From a virus: DNA of 27,603 nt. The stretch spans positions 7,957-35,559 of the IMG/VR virus record IMGVR_UViG_3300002514_000103. One strand, written 5' to 3'. The notes below the pieces were generated by a model. That model did no database searches. It was not told where the DNA came from and was given only the letters and a program-made list of their open reading frames with translations. The position numbers and the translations under genes were made by a program. Of this stretch, positions 7,049 to 25,488 are shown in pieces (the first letter of the stretch is position 1; each line of letters begins with the position of its first letter).

Positions 7049-8503
7049 ATGTCGACAATAGCAAAATATATTGATAAAGTGTTTTTTGACAGTTATTATC
7101 CTGTGTATGGTCCCGACCCCCTGGACCTACTTGGTGAGAAGTTTTATTATGGAAAAGTAGATACCCGCCTTAACTCAGTTTATATACCAGATTCACAAGC
7201 GCAGTTTCGTTTAGGTCAGTTATCCGCTAATGAAACTGTTTTTGCTGTAAACTTTGTAGCAGAGGCGTTTAACGCGATGAAGTCCTATTTCATTCGAGCA
7301 GCAGCCTCGCGGAGATTGTGCAGAGAGGGTCTTTATGTAAATTTGGAAGCCAAAAAGGGCTGGACAAGTTCAGACGAAAGGTTTCGTTTTCATCAAGAGA
7401 AGTATTTTCAGATATTTCATAATTTTATTAAAAGTTCTGGCAAGGTTTATGGGGTCAAAAACTTTGATGACTATTTAAGGCTCCTTTTAAGTTTTGCAGT
7501 TGAATTTGGCCACTCACTACCAATCACTAGAACTGGATTTATAAGATCGAAGTATTATTCGTTTTATTCGACAGGGCTTATAATCGACCTTGCAGTAGAA
7601 AACTATAACGACACAGGAAAGAGATTTAATTACATAAGTGACCCTAATTACAACTTTTTTAGGAAAGCCGCAAAAAGACACGGTTTTTTGGTTGATAAGT
7701 ATGCTCCTTGGAGGCTGATAGCAGATATCTCCTCTACTAGAATGCAAGAAGACTTTATGGTACCTGAGCCAATTTTCTACAATAAAGAGACAAGCCAGAT
7801 AGAGGCACTCGAAGAGGCTGTTGTTTCGCTAGAACCTGGCTCGACAGTTATCGCACCCGAAGGACAGCCTCTAGATTTTCCTGATTATGGACTAAAACTT
7901 GCTCCTGGCACTGCGTCAAACTATTTTGAAACATATTGTATAAAATCTCATATTCTTGATATCTTTGAGATGAAGAATGCGGTGATAAATTACTACAACC
8001 TCTTTGTTGGCCAAAACCCGACACAAAAGAAGAAAGAAGTCGGAACAAGTGACTGCAAGCCGGTGTTAACAGAACTTTTCACTCGAAGTCCCCTTGAGGG
8101 AGGGGATCTTGATCTTGCAAGCGGGTCTCAAGAATTTGAAAATTATAGTGATGCTTTTTGGGTGGACACTTACTTAAAAATCAGACTTGCAGAAGCGTCT
8201 GTTGTACTTCATAAGTCTAGATTAAGTCAAATGTTAAAAATGAACAGAATACTTTTAAAAAACTATGGGATGCAAAAGGCAATTGCTAATATTAATAGGT
8301 CAGTTATTATAGAGAAAGGAAGACAATCGAATCCAAAGTTTTGTCAAAACTATAATATTTGTGGGGACATAGACCTCCTGAAGAAAAAAGATATAGATTT
8401 TAGCTTGACAAGTCCGCAACAATACGGTTATACTACTACAACGATACCAACTATAACAGTTCCACCCCCCACCTCTGGAGGCGGAATGGGTGGCGGCTAT
8501 TAA
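7049..8503 (+). CDS. Unidentified virion/tail-associated protein
   Basis: A 484-residue protein that I do not recognise. It is rich in aromatic residues (many Tyr and Phe in residues 1-200), has no signal peptide or membrane segment, and ends in a flexible tail at about residues 455-484 with TTTT, a Pro run and GGGMGGGY. ATG 7049 is the first start after an in-frame TAG at 7043-7045. The only SD-like sequence (GAGGGG, 7026-7031) is unusually far upstream. It is the last gene of the tail block and follows the hub candidate, so a baseplate wedge, fibre-attachment or host-contact role is plausible. Nothing in the sequence proves it. Confidence 0.5.
   Translation: MSTIAKYIDKVFFDSYYPVYGPDPLDLLGEKFYYGKVDTRLNSVYIPDSQAQFRLGQLSANETVFAVNFVAEAFNAMKSYFIRAAASRRLCREGLYVNLEAKKGWTSSDERFRFHQEKYFQIFHNFIKSSGKVYGVKNFDDYLRLLLSFAVEFGHSLPITRTGFIRSKYYSFYSTGLIIDLAVENYNDTGKRFNYISDPNYNFFRKAAKRHGFLVDKYAPWRLIADISSTRMQEDFMVPEPIFYNKETSQIEALEEAVVSLEPGSTVIAPEGQPLDFPDYGLKLAPGTASNYFETYCIKSHILDIFEMKNAVINYYNLFVGQNPTQKKKEVGTSDCKPVLTELFTRSPLEGGDLDLASGSQEFENYSDAFWVDTYLKIRLAEASVVLHKSRLSQMLKMNRILLKNYGMQKAIANINRSVIIEKGRQSNPKFCQNYNICGDIDLLKKKDIDFSLTSPQQYGYTTTTIPTITVPPPTSGGGMGGGY
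8405..8434 (+). promoter_or_regulatory. Sigma70-like promoter at the tail/replication boundary
   Basis: TTGACA at 8405-8410, an 18-base spacer, then TATACT at 8429-8434. It lies inside the last 100 bases of the 484-residue tail gene and about 80 bases before the DNA polymerase start, so it could fire the replication block independently of the tail operon. Confidence 0.5.
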
Positions 8504-8517
8504 TTTTTGAGCGATAA

Positions 8518-9711
8518 TTGTATTTTCAGACATTAGACAATAAGAACGACTGCGTGGGCGTTTATTTAGAAGGAGAAATTTATTATGATGAAATCCCTAA
8601 AGGAATCAGCAAGACTTGGAGCTTTGTGCCTTATCTGGATGATCGAGGCGATAATGAAATTATTTGCGCCAATCTCTATGATCCCGGAATTACTCTTGAG
8701 TCCGCTTGCCCAACTTCGTTATCCGACGAGTTAAGGGAAATAAGCGATAGATTAGAGGCATATCGAAGCGCTTTTGAAGAAGCAAAGGTGGATATGAATG
8801 AGAACTGTTTTTTCTCTCTTGTACCAGAGAAGTTTCTTCTACAATTTTGTGAAATTAAAAACAAGATAACAAAGCATGTTATAGAAAACTACGAAAAGCC
8901 TGACAATTATAGTTTTTTACTTGATCTTGCTAGAATCATTGAGGAGATGGGGCAGAGAAAGTTAAATATCGACTTGGACCCAATTAAAAGCAAACTCCAT
9001 GAGTTTAAAGCAAGACAGTGGAGAGATAAGCTCAGAGATATCTCGCCTTATATATCTTATGATATATCAGGAACGATTACTGGTCGATTAACGACGAAGA
9101 GGGCTAGTTTTCCTATTTTGACGTTTCCTAAAGAATATCGTAGTGTTGTAAAGCCAGCAAACGATTGGTTTGTTGAGTTGGACTTCAACGCTGCTGAGTT
9201 GAGAACTCTCCTCGCTCTTTCTGGAAAAGAGCAGCCAGAGAAGGACATGCACCAGTGGAATATCGAAAATGTTTTTGGAGGAGGAATCACACGCGACGAA
9301 GCAAAGAAGAAGATCTTTGCTTGGCTGTATAACCCGAGAATGAAAGGCCCAGCCGGAAGAACTTATAATAGAGAGACTGTGAAAGATAAATTCTATTCAG
9401 GCGGCGTCGTTAAAAACTGTTTTGGTCGAGAGATGAAGTCTGATGATCATCATGCGCTAAACTATATTATTCAAAGCACAACGAGCGATATGTTTTTAAG
9501 ACAAATGGTGAAAGTGAATAATCTTCTAAAAGACAAAAAATCATTTATTTCCTTCTGCGTTCATGATAGTCTAGTGATTGACTTAGCCGAGCAGGAGAAA
9601 GAAATAATAATGCAGATTAAAGAGATCTTTGCAGATACAGAACTTGGAAAATACAAAGTAAACTTATCTGCAGGAAAGAATTATGGAAAACTAAAGGAGT
9701 TAAAAATATGA
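8518..9711 (+). CDS. Miniature family A DNA polymerase (PolA palm/fingers only)
   Basis: A 397-residue Pol I-family polymerase for phage DNA synthesis or repair. Conserved positions, with E. coli Pol I numbers in brackets: TGR R190 (R668), motif A D222 and E227 (D705, E710), O-helix R259, K263, F267 and Y271 (R754, K758, F762, Y766), Q319 (Q849), motif C H349-D350 (H881-D882). Motif C ends HDS, so the usual Glu883 is Ser351. The interval Y271 to Q319 is 48 residues against 83 in E. coli, so the fingers are strongly shortened. There is no 5' nuclease domain and no recognisable 3' exonuclease; residues 1-175 are unassigned. The start is TTG immediately after an in-frame TAA, with only a weak TGAGCG upstream. 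The Asn/Cys-rich N-terminus still reads as protein, so a far-upstream start is preferred to Met93. Confidence 0.8.
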   Translation: MYFQTLDNKNDCVGVYLEGEIYYDEIPKGISKTWSFVPYLDDRGDNEIICANLYDPGITLESACPTSLSDELREISDRLEAYRSAFEEAKVDMNENCFFSLVPEKFLLQFCEIKNKITKHVIENYEKPDNYSFLLDLARIIEEMGQRKLNIDLDPIKSKLHEFKARQWRDKLRDISPYISYDISGTITGRLTTKRASFPILTFPKEYRSVVKPANDWFVELDFNAAELRTLLALSGKEQPEKDMHQWNIENVFGGGITRDEAKKKIFAWLYNPRMKGPAGRTYNRETVKDKFYSGGVVKNCFGREMKSDDHHALNYIIQSTTSDMFLRQMVKVNNLLKDKKSFISFCVHDSLVIDLAEQEKEIIMQIKEIFADTELGKYKVNLSAGKNYGKLKELKI

Positions 9712-9758: not shown

Positions 9759-10634
9759 ATGGATACTGTAATAGGATTAGGAAAAGCAGGCTGTGCAATT
9801 GCTGATCAGTTTTCCAAGTTTGATCAGTATAGGGTATATAAGGTTGATGTCGGTCTTGAAGGGCTCAAAAAAGATGGTATATATAATATGCCAAAGCAGA
9901 GCGGCCCTGAAATGTATGAACAGAACTGTCCAAACTTAAAAAACTTCTTTAAAGATGTAAGAGGGGAGGTTCTTTTTATTGTCGGAGGCTCGGGAGACAT
10001 AACCGGAGCAACTTTAAGAATATTAGAAAAGTTGAGTAACTGCGACATTAACATTCTTTACATAAGACCAGACGTCAATCTTTTGCCTGAAGCCAAGAAA
10101 AGACATGAGTGGGTAACTTTCAATGTTCTTCAAGAATACGCCCGCTCTGCAGTCTTTAAACGTTTGTGGCTTATTGATAATGTATACGTTGAGAAGATTA
10201 TTGGGGATGTGCCTATAAAGTCTTATTATGATACGATAAACCAGTTTATAGTTTCTACGATTCACATGGTCAATGTTTACAATCATATAGAATCTGTCGC
10301 AAACACGTTTTCGGAACCATTCGAGACACACAGGATCTCCACTATAGGTTTAGCGGCATTAGAAAAAAGTGAAATAAATTTGTTTTTTCCTCTTGACAAT
10401 GTGAAAGATATACGCTATTATTATGCAATAAATAATCAAAGAATTGAAGAAGACGGCAAATTGTTTACGAAAATAAAAGAACAGGTAAAAAATCAGACCA
10501 CTGATGAGATCAAAACAAGTTTTGGAGTATACTCCACCGATTATGACAGTGATTATGTTTACGTGGTTTGTAATACGCCTGTTATTCAAAGGCACCTTTC
10601 AAATGAAGAAAAACCTTTGGATCTTTTTGCTTGA
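9759..10634 (+). CDS. FtsZ/tubulin-superfamily protein (phage tubulin-like)
   Basis: A 291-residue protein with tubulin/FtsZ architecture. The N-terminus reads IGLGKAGCAIADQF (residues 5-18), comparable to the T1 nucleotide loop GxGxAGC of tubulin and FtsZ. Residues 75-86 read VGGSGDITGATL, a variant of the GGGTGSG tubulin signature (T4 loop), followed by a helix and strand as in the family. Residues 130-175 resemble the FtsZ stretch 'L..vD..ivi.N..L' plus the long H7 helix (LWLIDNVYVEKI, then INQFIVSTIHMV). A second domain ends with SFGVYSTDYDSDYVYVV. The catalytic T7 loop NxDxxD is not recognisable around residues 178-195. Phage tubulins such as PhuZ and TubZ form filaments that position DNA or a phage nucleus; that role here is an inference. 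The stop lies inside the next promoter's -35 box. Confidence 0.65.
   Translation: MDTVIGLGKAGCAIADQFSKFDQYRVYKVDVGLEGLKKDGIYNMPKQSGPEMYEQNCPNLKNFFKDVRGEVLFIVGGSGDITGATLRILEKLSNCDINILYIRPDVNLLPEAKKRHEWVTFNVLQEYARSAVFKRLWLIDNVYVEKIIGDVPIKSYYDTINQFIVSTIHMVNVYNHIESVANTFSEPFETHRISTIGLAALEKSEINLFFPLDNVKDIRYYYAINNQRIEEDGKLFTKIKEQVKNQTTDEIKTSFGVYSTDYDSDYVYVVCNTPVIQRHLSNEEKPLDLFA
10393..10421 (+). promoter_or_regulatory. Possible internal promoter within the tubulin-like gene
   Basis: TTGACA at 10393-10398 and TATTAT at 10416-10421 with a 17-base spacer. It would make a longer leader for the SSB transcript. It lies in AT-rich coding sequence and may be coincidental. Confidence 0.25.
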
Positions 10635-10717: not shown

Positions 10718-11473
10718 ATGAGTATTGATTACAATAAAATTAAGCAACGGCTTACAAAACTTCAGAACAAAGGAGGCGGAGGTGATTCAACCTTCTGGCG
10801 ACCGAAGGATGGCGAAACAGTAATTCGCATTGTTCCGACGGTTGATGGCGATCCATTTAAGGATTTCTGGTTCCATTACAGTATCGGTAATGAGGCTCCG
10901 TTTCTAAGTCCAAAGAAAAACTTCGGTGAGGATGATCCAATTGATGCATTCGTCCGCAAGCTTTTCAATGAGGGCACTGAAGATAGTGTGAAGATGGCGA
11001 AGGCTCTTCTTCCACGCCAACGCTTCTTCACACCAGTTCTCGTTCGAGGCGAGGAGCATTTGGGAGTCCGTATTTGGGGATTCGGTAAGATGGCTTATGA
11101 AAAGCTTTTGAACCTTGTCCTCAACCCTGAATATGGGGATATTACGGATCCAGAGGAGGGGACAGATCTTGTCATTTCTTATGGCAAACCTGCGGGGGCA
11201 ACTTTCCCACAAACCTCTATCACTCCACGTCGTCAGTCATCGCCACTTTGCGCTGACGGACCAGAGAAGTGTCGGGAACTTATGGATAATATTCCAGATG
11301 TTAACACTCTCTTCGAGCGCAAGTCTGTAGAACAGGTCGAGCAAATTCTCGACAAGTTCTTAGCCGGCGATGATTCCGCAGAGGATCGCTCTTCTGAAGT
11401 CACAAAGTATAACAAGGAAACTGAAAATACTAGTGATGTAGAGACAGCATTCAAAGAACTTTTGAACGCTTAA
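10718..11473 (+). CDS. T4 gp32-like single-stranded DNA binding protein
   Basis: A 251-residue SSB that coats ssDNA during replication and recombination and works with UvsX and the helicase. The N-terminal basic helix (YNKIKQRLTKLQNKGGGGDS) leads into FWRPKDGETVIRIVP, the entry to the gp32 OB-fold. The C-terminal 45 residues form an acidic, Ser-rich tail as in gp32. The T4 zinc module (His64, Cys77, Cys87, Cys90) keeps only the His equivalent, H53 in WFHY. The cysteine positions read S64 in FLSPKK, D73 and D76 in DPID, so zinc binding is probably lost. AGGAG precedes the ATG. The FKBP and uvsX genes lie downstream. Confidence 0.85.
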   Translation: MSIDYNKIKQRLTKLQNKGGGGDSTFWRPKDGETVIRIVPTVDGDPFKDFWFHYSIGNEAPFLSPKKNFGEDDPIDAFVRKLFNEGTEDSVKMAKALLPRQRFFTPVLVRGEEHLGVRIWGFGKMAYEKLLNLVLNPEYGDITDPEEGTDLVISYGKPAGATFPQTSITPRRQSSPLCADGPEKCRELMDNIPDVNTLFERKSVEQVEQILDKFLAGDDSAEDRSSEVTKYNKETENTSDVETAFKELLNA

Positions 11474-11540: not shown

Positions 11541-11972
11541 ATGAGTAAAGTAAAAAACGGAAACAACGTAAGAGTCCATTACAAGGGAACACTGGAAGAC
11601 GGGACTGTTTTCGATAATTCATACGACAGAGAACAAACTTTAGATTTTGAAGTTGGCTCTGGCAACATAATTCCAGGATTTGACAAGGCCGTCGTTGGTA
11701 TGGCCGAAGGTGAAACTAAAACCTTCAAGGTGCCATGTGCGGAAGCATACAAGGAACACAACCCTGAAGCGATCTTCAAGGTTCCGAAGGCGGCTTTTGA
11801 TGAGTCTGTGACTCTCATAGAGGGACAGGCAGTTCAGGGCACAAGCACAGATGGACGCCCAATTCAGGCGACTATCCACTCTTTTGATGAGGAGAATGTT
11901 ACACTAGATCACAATCATCCTCTTGCTGGAAAGGATCTCAATTTTGAAGTTGAGTTGGTAGAGATCCTTTAA
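11541..11972 (+). CDS. FKBP-type peptidyl-prolyl isomerase, SlyD-like
   Basis: A 143-residue cytoplasmic prolyl isomerase/chaperone. Residues 9-57 (VRVHYKGTLEDGTVFDNS through GNIIPGFDKAVVGMAEGE) are the FKBP core. About 50 residues follow that correspond to the insert-in-flap domain of SlyD. The fold closes with LDHNHPLAGKDLNFEVELVEI (residues 122-142). The Cys/His-rich metal-binding tail of bacterial SlyD is missing, and the protein ends right after the FKBP domain. The gene sits between SSB and uvsX and is flanked by the two hairpin repeats, which suggests insertion as a cassette. An AAGGAT site precedes the ATG. A role in folding phage or host proteins is likely, but the client is unknown. 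Confidence 0.88.
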   Translation: MSKVKNGNNVRVHYKGTLEDGTVFDNSYDREQTLDFEVGSGNIIPGFDKAVVGMAEGETKTFKVPCAEAYKEHNPEAIFKVPKAAFDESVTLIEGQAVQGTSTDGRPIQATIHSFDEENVTLDHNHPLAGKDLNFEVELVEIL

Positions 11973-22077: not shown

Positions 22078-25000
22078 TTGTCTAAGAAGATACCCTTTAC
22101 AGGGCTGCACGCTCACAGTGGACTTAGCCTGAACGATGGGCTCGGCTATCCACAAGAGCACATGAAGTTCGCTTACGATAACGGAGCGGACGCTTTGGCG
22201 TTGACCGATCACGGACACATGAACGGTCTGCCATATCAAATTCTTTACACGAAAAAGTTGAGGGCTGATGGTAAGAACTTCAAGCCAATTTTTGGTGTTG
22301 AGGCATACTTCCTGCCGTCTCTTGATCTTTGGCGGGATGAGTATGAAAAGGCCAAACAGCAAAAGAAAAAGATGGGAAGCAATGAGGTGACTCTGAACAT
22401 TGAAGATGAGAGAGCCTCTAAACAAAAGGTGAAAGATATTCTCAAGAAGAGAAACCACCTTATCCTCCTTGCTCAGAACCAGCAAGGGTTGAATAATATT
22501 TTTAAATTAGTATCGGAGAGTTACAAAAGTGGTAATTTTTATAGGTATCCTCGCATTGATTACGATCTTCTTGGAAGTTATAACGAAGGCATCATTGCTT
22601 CTTCTGCTTGTCTTGGCGGTGTATATGCTGGGGATTACTGGGAAAATAGAGAGTCTGGCACAGATGCTGTTCTAGAGGCGATGCGAGACACTACTCGTCG
22701 GATGAAGGGCGTTTTCGGAGACAGGTGGTTTGGAGAGATCCAGTGGAACAACATCAAAGAACAACATGAACTGAATCAACATATCATACAGGTGTGTAAA
22801 GAGTTTGATGTTGATCTGATCTCTACCGCCGATAGTCACTATCCAAATCCTGACGCATGGAAGGACAGGGAACTCTACAAGCGAATCGGGTGGCTTGGCA
22901 AAGGTGGACTGCCATCTTACATGTCTTCTGAACTTCCTGACGGAGTTGAGGAGATCGGCTATGAACTGTATCCAAAGAATGGAGAGCAGATGGTAGAGTC
23001 CTATCACAAGTATTCGGATATGCTTAAGATGGACTATGATGACGAACTTGTTCTTGACTCTATCAAGCGCACTCACCATATCGCTCACGATCTGATTGAA
23101 GACTTCATGCCTGATAACGAAGTGCGGCTTCCAAAGTTTGTTGTACCAGAAGGGAAGACAGACATTCAGGCCTTGACCGAGAAGTGTATTGCGGGACTTA
23201 AAGAGTACGAACTTGATAAGAAGGAAGATTATGTTGATCGATTGAAAGAAGAACTGAGGGTTATTAAAGATCGTGGCTTTGCAAAGTATTTCTTGACTAT
23301 GAAGGCCATCGCAGACAAGGCAACGTCCGTTCAACTCACGGGACCAGGACGAGGATCTGCAGCGGGCTCGCTCGTTGCGTATGTGCTCAACATTACTCAG
23401 ATTGATCCTATAAAGTATGGGCTACTCTTCTCCAGGTTCTTAAGAAGGGATGCTGTTGACTATCCTGATATCGACTATGACGTTTCTAACCCGATGGAGT
23501 TGAAAGAGATGTTGATTGAGGAGTGGGGAGACTCGACGGTTGTTCCGATATCGAACTACAACACTCTGCAACTAAGATCCTTAATTAAGGATATTTCTAA
23601 GTTTTACGACATACCCTTCACTGAGGTGAACATTGTAACTGGCCGTATGATTCATGAGGCGACCCCCATTGCCAAGAAGAAGCACGGAATCAAGGCAGGT
23701 GTTTACTCTCCGACATTCGAAGAGGTGATGGAGTATTCTGAAAGCTTGAAGAAGTTTTTGGAAAAGTATCCTCACGTAAAGGTTCATGTCGAAGCCCTGT
23801 TGGGGCAGGTCCGATCTGTTTCTCGTCACGCTGGCGGCGTTGTGGTCGGTGAAGATCTCGACAAGTGGATGCCCCTCATGAACAGCGGAGGAGTAAGACA
23901 GACTCCTTGGAGTGAAGGACAGAACGTACGACATCTTGAGCCGCTTGGATTTATTAAATTTGATATTCTCGGATTAGCATCGCTCCGCATGATTGAGGGA
24001 GCGGTTCGACATATCTTAAAGAGACACCATAACAATCCAGATCCCACATTCGAGGATGTTAAGAGATACTATGAAGAACATCTGCATCCAGACAAGATAA
24101 ATCTAAATGATCAGAATGTCTATAAGAACATATTTCATGAGGGCAAGTGGGCAGGAGTATTCCAGTTTACAGAAAAGGGCGCACAAGACTTCTGCAAGCG
24201 AGCGAAGCCAAGAAGCATCATCGATATCTCTGCTATTACTTCGATTTATCGTCCAGGACCCTTGTCTGCCAAAGTAGACCAAAATTATGTAGACTCTAAG
24301 AATAACCCTGGTGGAATTGACTACAAGCACGGCGTTATCAAGGAAGTAACTAAAGAAACTTATGGGTACTTGATCTTTCAGGAACAGATTGCTCTTCTTG
24401 CACACAGGTTGGGAAAGAATGTCTCCCTCGATGAAGGTAACGCTCTCCGTAAGTTATTAACAAAGAAAGGTACAGGAGATCATGAAAAAAAGAAAACAAA
24501 AATCTACAAGAAGTTCGTCGAAGGTTGTCTATCTGAAGGACTTTCGCGAGGGGACGCCAACGAACTTTGGCAGAAGTTTGAATACTTCTCAGGGTATGGC
24601 TTTAATAAGTCCCACGCTGTTAGCTACAGCATTCTTAGTTATCAGTGTGCCTATCTTCTTAATTACTATCCCTCAGAGTGGATGGCAGCGTTTCTTGACA
24701 AGGAGCCAGAGAAGCGAAAAGAGAAAGCAATCAACATCGCCAAGTCCTTTGGATTTAATATTGAAAAGCTAAATGTCAATACGTCTGGGACTTTTTGGGA
24801 AATTTCGGAAGACGGCGAGACTTTAGTACAGCCGCTGACATCGATTAAGGGCTTAGGCAGCGCGGCTATTGAGCAGATTCTCAGCAACAGACCTTTTGAG
24901 AAGATAGACGATCTCTTGTTCAAAGAGGGCATTATTCATAGCAAGCTTAATAAGAAGGCTTTAGATGTCCTTTGTCGCGGCGGTGCGCTGGACAGTCTCT

Positions 25001-25488
25001 TTGATGAACGGTTCACAGGTATGAAACACTTATGGTCTGCTGCCATTGCAGATAGGCCGAAAACTGTTAAGAAGTTGGCTGAGAATATAGAAACATACGC
25101 AGAAGAAGGGGAGTTTTCCATAGATGAGAAGATCGCTTATTTATCTGACTTGACGGGCTTCTTCCCAATGCATCTTGTTCTGAAAGAGGAGACTCGAATG
25201 AAGTTGGAAGAGATGTTCGCGCCACCGATTTCAGAATATGATCCGGACTTACAACTTGTTTGGTTTATTCCAAGAGAGATAGTTAAGCGCAAGACGAAGA
25301 ATGGCAAGGACTATTGGGTCTTGAACGTGATTGATTCAAACAACATACAGACTCAGATTAAGTGTTGGGGAGTACGAGAGAAGGATCAAGTGTTCATCAA
25401 TCGACCCTATCTCGCTAAACTGGAATATGACGAGCAGTGGGGATTCTCTACTCGTTCGGTTTATTATAATCTAAAGTTGATAGGATGA
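22078..25488 (+). CDS. dnaE: DNA polymerase III alpha subunit, DnaE type (family C)
   Basis: A 1136-residue replicative polymerase. The PHP domain opens with LHAHSGLS (H11, H13) and LTDHGH (D44, H45, H47), so its metal site looks intact, unlike in E. coli. The palm contains GPGRGSAAGS and YPDIDYD (D464, D466), with the third Asp, D629, in IKFDILGL. Fingers, helix-hairpin-helix and an OB-fold (WFIPREIVKRKTKNG...WGVREKD) follow in normal order. The length is close to bacterial DnaE (about 1160). The start is TTG 22078, six bases after AGGAG. It is probably the main replicase alongside the small PolA. An active PHP domain could proofread, since no separate 3' exonuclease is seen. Confidence 0.93.
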   Translation: MSKKIPFTGLHAHSGLSLNDGLGYPQEHMKFAYDNGADALALTDHGHMNGLPYQILYTKKLRADGKNFKPIFGVEAYFLPSLDLWRDEYEKAKQQKKKMGSNEVTLNIEDERASKQKVKDILKKRNHLILLAQNQQGLNNIFKLVSESYKSGNFYRYPRIDYDLLGSYNEGIIASSACLGGVYAGDYWENRESGTDAVLEAMRDTTRRMKGVFGDRWFGEIQWNNIKEQHELNQHIIQVCKEFDVDLISTADSHYPNPDAWKDRELYKRIGWLGKGGLPSYMSSELPDGVEEIGYELYPKNGEQMVESYHKYSDMLKMDYDDELVLDSIKRTHHIAHDLIEDFMPDNEVRLPKFVVPEGKTDIQALTEKCIAGLKEYELDKKEDYVDRLKEELRVIKDRGFAKYFLTMKAIADKATSVQLTGPGRGSAAGSLVAYVLNITQIDPIKYGLLFSRFLRRDAVDYPDIDYDVSNPMELKEMLIEEWGDSTVVPISNYNTLQLRSLIKDISKFYDIPFTEVNIVTGRMIHEATPIAKKKHGIKAGVYSPTFEEVMEYSESLKKFLEKYPHVKVHVEALLGQVRSVSRHAGGVVVGEDLDKWMPLMNSGGVRQTPWSEGQNVRHLEPLGFIKFDILGLASLRMIEGAVRHILKRHHNNPDPTFEDVKRYYEEHLHPDKINLNDQNVYKNIFHEGKWAGVFQFTEKGAQDFCKRAKPRSIIDISAITSIYRPGPLSAKVDQNYVDSKNNPGGIDYKHGVIKEVTKETYGYLIFQEQIALLAHRLGKNVSLDEGNALRKLLTKKGTGDHEKKKTKIYKKFVEGCLSEGLSRGDANELWQKFEYFSGYGFNKSHAVSYSILSYQCAYLLNYYPSEWMAAFLDKEPEKRKEKAINIAKSFGFNIEKLNVNTSGTFWEISEDGETLVQPLTSIKGLGSAAIEQILSNRPFEKIDDLLFKEGIIHSKLNKKALDVLCRGGALDSLFDERFTGMKHLWSAAIADRPKTVKKLAENIETYAEEGEFSIDEKIAYLSDLTGFFPMHLVLKEETRMKLEEMFAPPISEYDPDLQLVWFIPREIVKRKTKNGKDYWVLNVIDSNNIQTQIKCWGVREKDQVFINRPYLAKLEYDEQWGFSTRSVYYNLKLIG

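Follow-up and report, generated by a model that had tools for sequence, protein, structure and literature searches.

Does a protein encoded between a DNA polymerase gene and a single-strand DNA-binding protein gene of an uncultured phage belong to the tubulin/FtsZ superfamily, and if so, what may such a protein do in a replication module? The DNA analysed, hereafter the window, measures 27,603 nucleotides and corresponds to the right-hand 27.6 kb of a virus record of 35,559 bases. The gene starts with ATG, coincides exactly with the ORF at 9759-10634 on the + strand, and encodes a protein of 291 aa; the opposite strand is interrupted by stops. The protein and its relatives are called family A. 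The gene and its flanking genes are:

8518..9711, + strand, short DNA polymerase of the polymerase family A type (polA), adjacent upstream (PF00476, E 1.2e-14)
9759..10634, + strand, divergent protein of predicted tubulin/FtsZ fold, family A (ORF, AF2, Foldseek, hhalign)
10718..11473, + strand, gp32-like single-strand DNA-binding protein (SSB), adjacent downstream (PF08804, E 9.8e-13)

The initial annotation had set the gene between a small polymerase and an SSB gene, and both neighbours were confirmed by these profile matches. It had also described the block as T4-flavoured. This holds for gp32, UvsX/RecA and the DnaB/gp41-type helicase, but not for the polymerases, which are of the PolA and PolIII-alpha types and not gp43. 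The latter enzyme (22078-25488, DnaE-type with a PHP domain) is encoded alongside the short PolA, so that a single phage has two polymerases of replicative type. Directly upstream of polA, in the window as in most relatives, lies a gene (7049-8503) for a 484-aa protein without family match, possibly the missing N-terminal part of the short polymerase, or a partner of it. An FKBP-type prolyl isomerase gene (11541-11972; PF00254, E 1.2e-25) is found between the SSB and RecA genes, and occurs only in some relatives. ORF products of the first 8 kb of the record look like contractile-tail components.

Relatives of the window protein

Used alone, the window protein retrieved nothing significant from Pfam, PHROGs, PADLOC or PDB sequences. 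Profiles A1 and A3 gave no significant match to PDB sequences either, and tblastn searches with two family A members found no match in 50,697 INPHARED phage records. Relatives were identified in IMG/VR contigs, at least 591 and at least 597 in two scans; the matches listed include contigs of 155-204 kb. A deep alignment was made of 102 diverse natural members, the identity to the window protein being as low as 35%. Eight positions are invariant in the alignment, and about thirty more are conserved in >90% of the members. The dN/dS ratio is ~0.07 (91 close pairs), denoting strong purifying selection; judged from these substitutions, the gene is real and constrained.

The phages hosting family A are read as mostly marine from their relatives and replication module, rather than from habitat records. 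A chromosomal copy in a WOR-3 MAG (CP070664.1, locus L111) was considered as a clue to the host, and discarded as unreliable. The u7049-polA-A-gp32-RecA block is found there at about 2,249-2,254 kb, but it is flanked by 100-N gaps at which the record was joined, which makes the host assignment unsafe; the segment probably comes from a viral contig added to the bin by scaffolding. No published marine or replication-linked phage FtsZ was found in a literature search covering mainly open-access journal articles.

Predicted fold

The AF2 model of the window protein, built with 102 natural relatives and no templates, has a mean pLDDT of 94.5 and a pTM of 0.91, and all five models reach a pLDDT of at least 94. 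With only 17 sequences the prediction was poor (pLDDT 56.4). The elements follow one another as in FtsZ: strand 1, T1, H1, strands 2 and 3, H3, strand 4, T4 and H4 are followed by strand 5, H5, strand 6, H6, a 22-residue H7, and a C-terminal sheet with one long helix. In Foldseek searches of the PDB, the best 50 rows all correspond to FtsZ, TubZ or tubulin, matched over the full length. The top match is FtsZ (E 1.2e-12, probability 1.00, TM 0.70/0.67), and TubZ is also matched (2xka_C, E 1.6e-12); identity to FtsZ in these alignments is 11-16%. Among viral proteins, a predicted FtsZ from an uncultured Caudovirales phage matches best (E 8e-13, TM 0.78).

Profile comparisons point to the same superfamily, weakly but with specificity. 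Aligned by hhalign to 25 FtsZ sequences, family A scored an E value of 2.2e-4 (probability 45%), and seven control families, unrelated and taken from the same phages, scored 0.066-0.53 (probability <1%). The alignment is co-linear over T1 (IGLGxAGCN in family A, IGVGGAGCN in FtsZ), T3 (PE, where H3 begins), T4, T5 and T6, the asparagines that end strand 6 and lie in H7 being among the aligned residues. Among NCBIfam models, TIGR00065 (ftsZ) is the one matched, weakly, by most members; the Pfam Tubulin model (PF00091) weakly matches 11 of 102.

The most frequent weak Pfam match is TrkA_N, found in 20 of the 102 members (best E 4.6e-6). It would fit an NAD(P)-binding Rossmann oxidoreductase, resembling FtsZ in the glycine motif only. 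From the sequences, these matches are attributed to the shared GxGxxG motif. The TrkA_N reading leaves the long H7 helix and the C-terminal domain unexplained, and is disfavoured for this reason: the whole-length fold, these two elements included, is that of FtsZ/TubZ, and neither a dehydrogenase nor a TrkA_N fold occurs among the best 50 PDB matches. The conserved T4, N141 and N161 are moreover tubulin/FtsZ landmarks. An oxidoreductase is largely refuted by the AF2 model and the Foldseek matches, and is most improbable.

Membership is not proven by sequence scores alone, and the predicted structure does most of the work. Taken together with an FtsZ profile match above the controls, the full-length fold match supports the tubulin/FtsZ call originally made from two motifs and from the order of the strand and helix segments, and the window protein very probably has the fold of the superfamily. 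A different fold, or assignment of residues 1-175 to another family, would have spoken against the call; both were looked for, and neither was observed.

Landmarks along the protein

Landmarks were positioned by AF2, Foldseek, hhalign and the alignment of the 102 members. All lie on the + strand:

9768..9803, + strand, T1 / glycine motif VIGLGKAGCAIA, residues 4-15, aligning with FtsZ IGVGGxGxN
9984..10010, + strand, T4 / G-loop GGSGDITGA, residues 76-84, a reduced form of FtsZ GGGTGTG, co-linear in hhalign
10131..10148, + strand, QEYARS at the end of H5, residues 125-130, where conservation in the family peaks, no known tubulin signature
10179..10181, + strand, N141, after strand 6 (FtsZ IxNDKL position), conserved in 95% of 102 members, aligning with the FtsZ N in hhalign
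10215..10280, + strand, H7 core helix, residues 153-174 (AF2 helix)
10281..10334, + strand, T7-position loop, residues 175-192, catalytic acid not conserved (alignment of 102)
10335..10577, + strand, C-terminal (activation-type) domain, strands S7-S10 and helix 235-246 (AF2, mostly pLDDT >90; full-length Foldseek)
10602..10631, + strand, short unstructured C-terminal tail, residues 282-291, lineage-specific (pLDDT <50)

The two motifs from which the call had started, IGLGKAGC and GGSGDITG, were found as described at residues 5-12 and 76-83. In T1, G6 and G8 are conserved in 100% of the 102 members, G11 in 98%, C12 in 93% and N13 in 57%; in T4, G77 is conserved in 85%, G79 in 91%, S/T82 in 93% and G83 in 69%, and the nearby L86 in 100%. 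Conservation across 102 divergent members qualifies these glycine motifs as family motifs, and not as chance occurrences. The family-wide form of T4 is GSGx[IV]SG, at the expected place, and the canonical GGGTG is absent. The T5 landmark, a proline in FtsZ, is retained, unlike the glycine loop that FtsZ has at T3. Since this glycine loop is missing and T4 is devoid of the GGGTG core, nucleotide binding could be lost or altered. Still, a guanine nucleotide is probably bound in the T1-T6 pocket.

Conservation is highest in three segments: T1, the last residues of H5 (QEYxRS) and the last residues of H7 (HMxN). Residues Q125, R129 and S130 are found in all 102 members, and segment 121-131 ranks at the 82nd conservation percentile. 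In H7, N161, at the guanine-contact position of FtsZ/tubulin, is conserved in 95% of the members, H169 in 100%, and M170 and N172 in 96%. The conserved ends of H5 and H7 are not tubulin signatures, and may form a structural or binding site specific to the family.

C-terminal tails vary across family A, and most members stop shortly past the last strand. The terminus of the window protein, PLDLFA (10614-10631), resembles a sliding-clamp binding peptide. It is partly common only to the closest relative (ELFA, in L033) and, as tails are not conserved, a sliding-clamp motif was rejected at the family level.

T7-position loop and catalysis

FtsZ, TubZ and PhuZ share a catalytic acid in the T7 loop, and family A does not conserve it. 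No NxDxxD loop is recognisable in the window protein, as the initial annotation had pointed out, and the T7-position loop ranks at the 29th conservation percentile, the lowest of the segments tested. The same loop ranks at the 69th percentile in FtsZ and at the 63rd in family B, a second group of phage tubulins described below. Acids are present at both aligned T7 positions in 33 of the 102 members, DxxD in six. The conserved T7 acid seems to have been lost in family A, as far as can be read from the alignment, and with it, we infer, canonical inter-subunit catalysis.

The T7 loop and H10 of FtsZ help form the lower longitudinal interface. H10 of family A ranks at the 41st percentile, and poor conservation of both elements argues against a canonical protofilament. 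As the elements of the lower interface are poorly conserved, filament formation is uncertain, and on balance doubtful.

Filaments are central to one alternative, by which family A would be a PhuZ-like cytomotive filament, centring or segregating the replicating phage genome, and turning GTP over by alternative loop residues, as the DxxE of one clade. The fold is the same, PhuZ and C-st TubZ do position or partition phage DNA (PMC4244570, PMC7950403), and one third of the members (33/102) carry both acids. The loop is however the least conserved segment, and DxxD is confined to the six members mentioned. The long C-terminal tail of TubZ, needed for its assembly dynamics (PMC5322520), is missing in family A. 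We regard a cytomotive filament of this type as unlikely.

Gene order

Where the flanking DNA was long enough, polA was the first conserved gene upstream of A in 118 of 118 loci, and the SSB gene the first one downstream in 127 of 128, some contigs being counted repeatedly, so that in both counts the loci are not fully independent. In the single downstream exception, family A is followed by the next gene of the module. Past A, the order of the genes is SSB-RecA-exonuclease-DnaB helicase. The gap from polA to A has a median of -1 nt (146 loci), a spacing typical of translational coupling, and measures 47 nt in the window. By its spacing, A appears to be usually coupled to polA at translation. 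The polA-A-gp32 order shows co-expression, not physical contact in the replisome.

The initial annotation had suggested that the protein may position replicating DNA, form filaments without normal GTP turnover, or regulate host FtsZ. Since the gene is linked so tightly to polA and ssb, a role in replication is favoured over a role against host FtsZ, and a replication-linked function of A is probable. As an antagonist, A would be a pseudo-subunit capping the FtsZ filaments of the host, and blocking division during infection. The fold matches FtsZ, and a subunit lacking T7 might, in principle, attach to just one of the two ends of a filament. Yet the gene resides in the replication core in essentially all the relatives checked, unlike typical accessory genes for host takeover, and the 11-16% identity to FtsZ makes co-assembly unlikely. 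Such an antagonist is accordingly improbable.

The main rival of the reading proposed below is a subunit of the replisome which does not polymerise, an exapted monomer or dimer which senses nucleotide as a partner of the polymerase or of SSB, and in which Q125, R129, S130 and H169 make up a protein-binding site. The strict gene order and the translational coupling are consistent with it, as are conservation peaks located at the ends of H5 and H7 rather than at T7 and H10, and the lack of a long tail in most members, which end soon past the last strand. The invariant residues may, on the other hand, be structural, and the well-studied relatives of the tubulin/FtsZ fold do polymerise. We consider this subunit possible, but rather unlikely.

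The cultured Flavobacterium phage immuto has a module like that of the window (polA - x - gp32 - RecA - exonuclease - DnaB - RNR), with two small genes in the polA/gp32 slot which do not match family A. No diverged copy of A was found in this slot in immuto, nor in Microcystis phage Mel-JY01, which carries the same module. The slot genes of the two phages are dissimilar to A, which is therefore a fixed component of the replication operon, yet one specific to certain lineages.

A second family of phage tubulins

A Pfam Tubulin search of long relatives of family A uncovered family B (loci L114-L193). Two examples, tubulin/FtsZ proteins of about 364 aa, are:

L112:1030-2121, - strand, family B
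L113:991-2028, - strand, family B

Family B features a canonical T4 (GGGGGTGS) and an invariant DxxD in T7, and is clearly FtsZ-like (FtsZ PDB match, E 8e-10). One IMG/VR scan confirmed 107 relatives; none was found in the 50,697 INPHARED phage records at the sensitivity used. Profile similarity between families A and B is only weak.

Families A and B coexist in seven large contigs (G002, G004, G021, G022, G023, G025, G036), at separate loci far apart from each other. Co-occurrence, and the invariant DxxD of B, could suggest that A is an obligate heterodimer partner of B, one T7 being active and one inactive, as in alpha/beta-tubulin. Even by profile search, however, B was not found in seven A contigs of 155-204 kb (L035, L068, L096, L201, L217, L223, L249), and ten large B-bearing contigs are devoid of A, though contigs of either set may be incomplete. 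Many large contigs with only A or only B make it reasonable to think that A does not need B. These searches, along with the distance between the genes, led us to largely reject an obligate heterodimer, which is highly improbable.

Comparison with known tubulins

FtsZ (PF00091, TIGR00065) is both the best PDB fold match and the best profile match of family A. They share the two-domain fold, the T1 glycine loop, the T5 proline, and the asparagines at the end of strand 6 and in H7. In contrast to FtsZ, family A has no T3 glycine loop, a reduced T4 (GSGxISG), no conserved T7 acid and no conserved C-terminal tail, and is located in a phage replication operon.

PhuZ, or phiKZ TubZ, comes from nucleus-forming jumbo phages, and is associated with replicating DNA. 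Like A, it is a phage-encoded protein of the tubulin superfamily. The hhalign comparison of A with a single PhuZ sequence was not significant (E 0.11). The phiKZ PhuZ gene, unlike A, is not found between polymerase and SSB genes, and phages hosting A differ from PhuZ phages in carrying the gp32/RecA/DnaB module. TubZ of Bacillus plasmids and of phage C-st makes a DNA partition system with TubR (PMC7950403), and its C-terminal tail is functional (PMC7950403, PMC5322520). TubZ shares the fold with A, which in contrast is flanked by polA and gp32 in essentially all the loci checked, with no adjacent TubR. Reviews describe two groups of phage tubulins, C-st TubZ and PhuZ (PMC7950403, PMC7824862). 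Family A has the fold and the link to phage DNA but lacks the conserved T7 acid, and has been therefore filed as a new divergent branch, distinct from TubZ, PhuZ and FtsZ.

Proposed role and significance

In our preferred reading, to which we give a probability of roughly 0.55, family A is a previously unnamed, deeply divergent tubulin/FtsZ branch residing in the replication module of a sizeable group of uncultured phages, and functions as a nucleotide-binding scaffold or positioning element without canonical hydrolysis. The protein would be made together with the polymerase, would bind a guanine nucleotide in the T1-T6 pocket, and would not use the canonical inter-subunit mechanism to hydrolyse it. 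As canonical hydrolysis would be missing, assemblies, if formed, would be stable or gated by the nucleotide, without dynamic turnover. On replicating phage DNA, A would provide the replication complex with a scaffold, or would position it. A stronger version, by which A is a dedicated component of the viral replisome, a catalytically inactive FtsZ-fold subunit co-translated with the polymerase, binding both polymerase and SSB as a nucleotide-gated scaffold at the fork, is more speculative, and we hold it as rather improbable.

Family A adds to phage tubulins a group present in hundreds of uncultured viral contigs, and missed by ordinary sequence searches, which denotes that viral dark matter contains more tubulin relatives than have been counted. 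It provides a test of what the tubulin fold does without hydrolysis, and of whether the replication of DNA, rather than its movement, can be the task of a tubulin.
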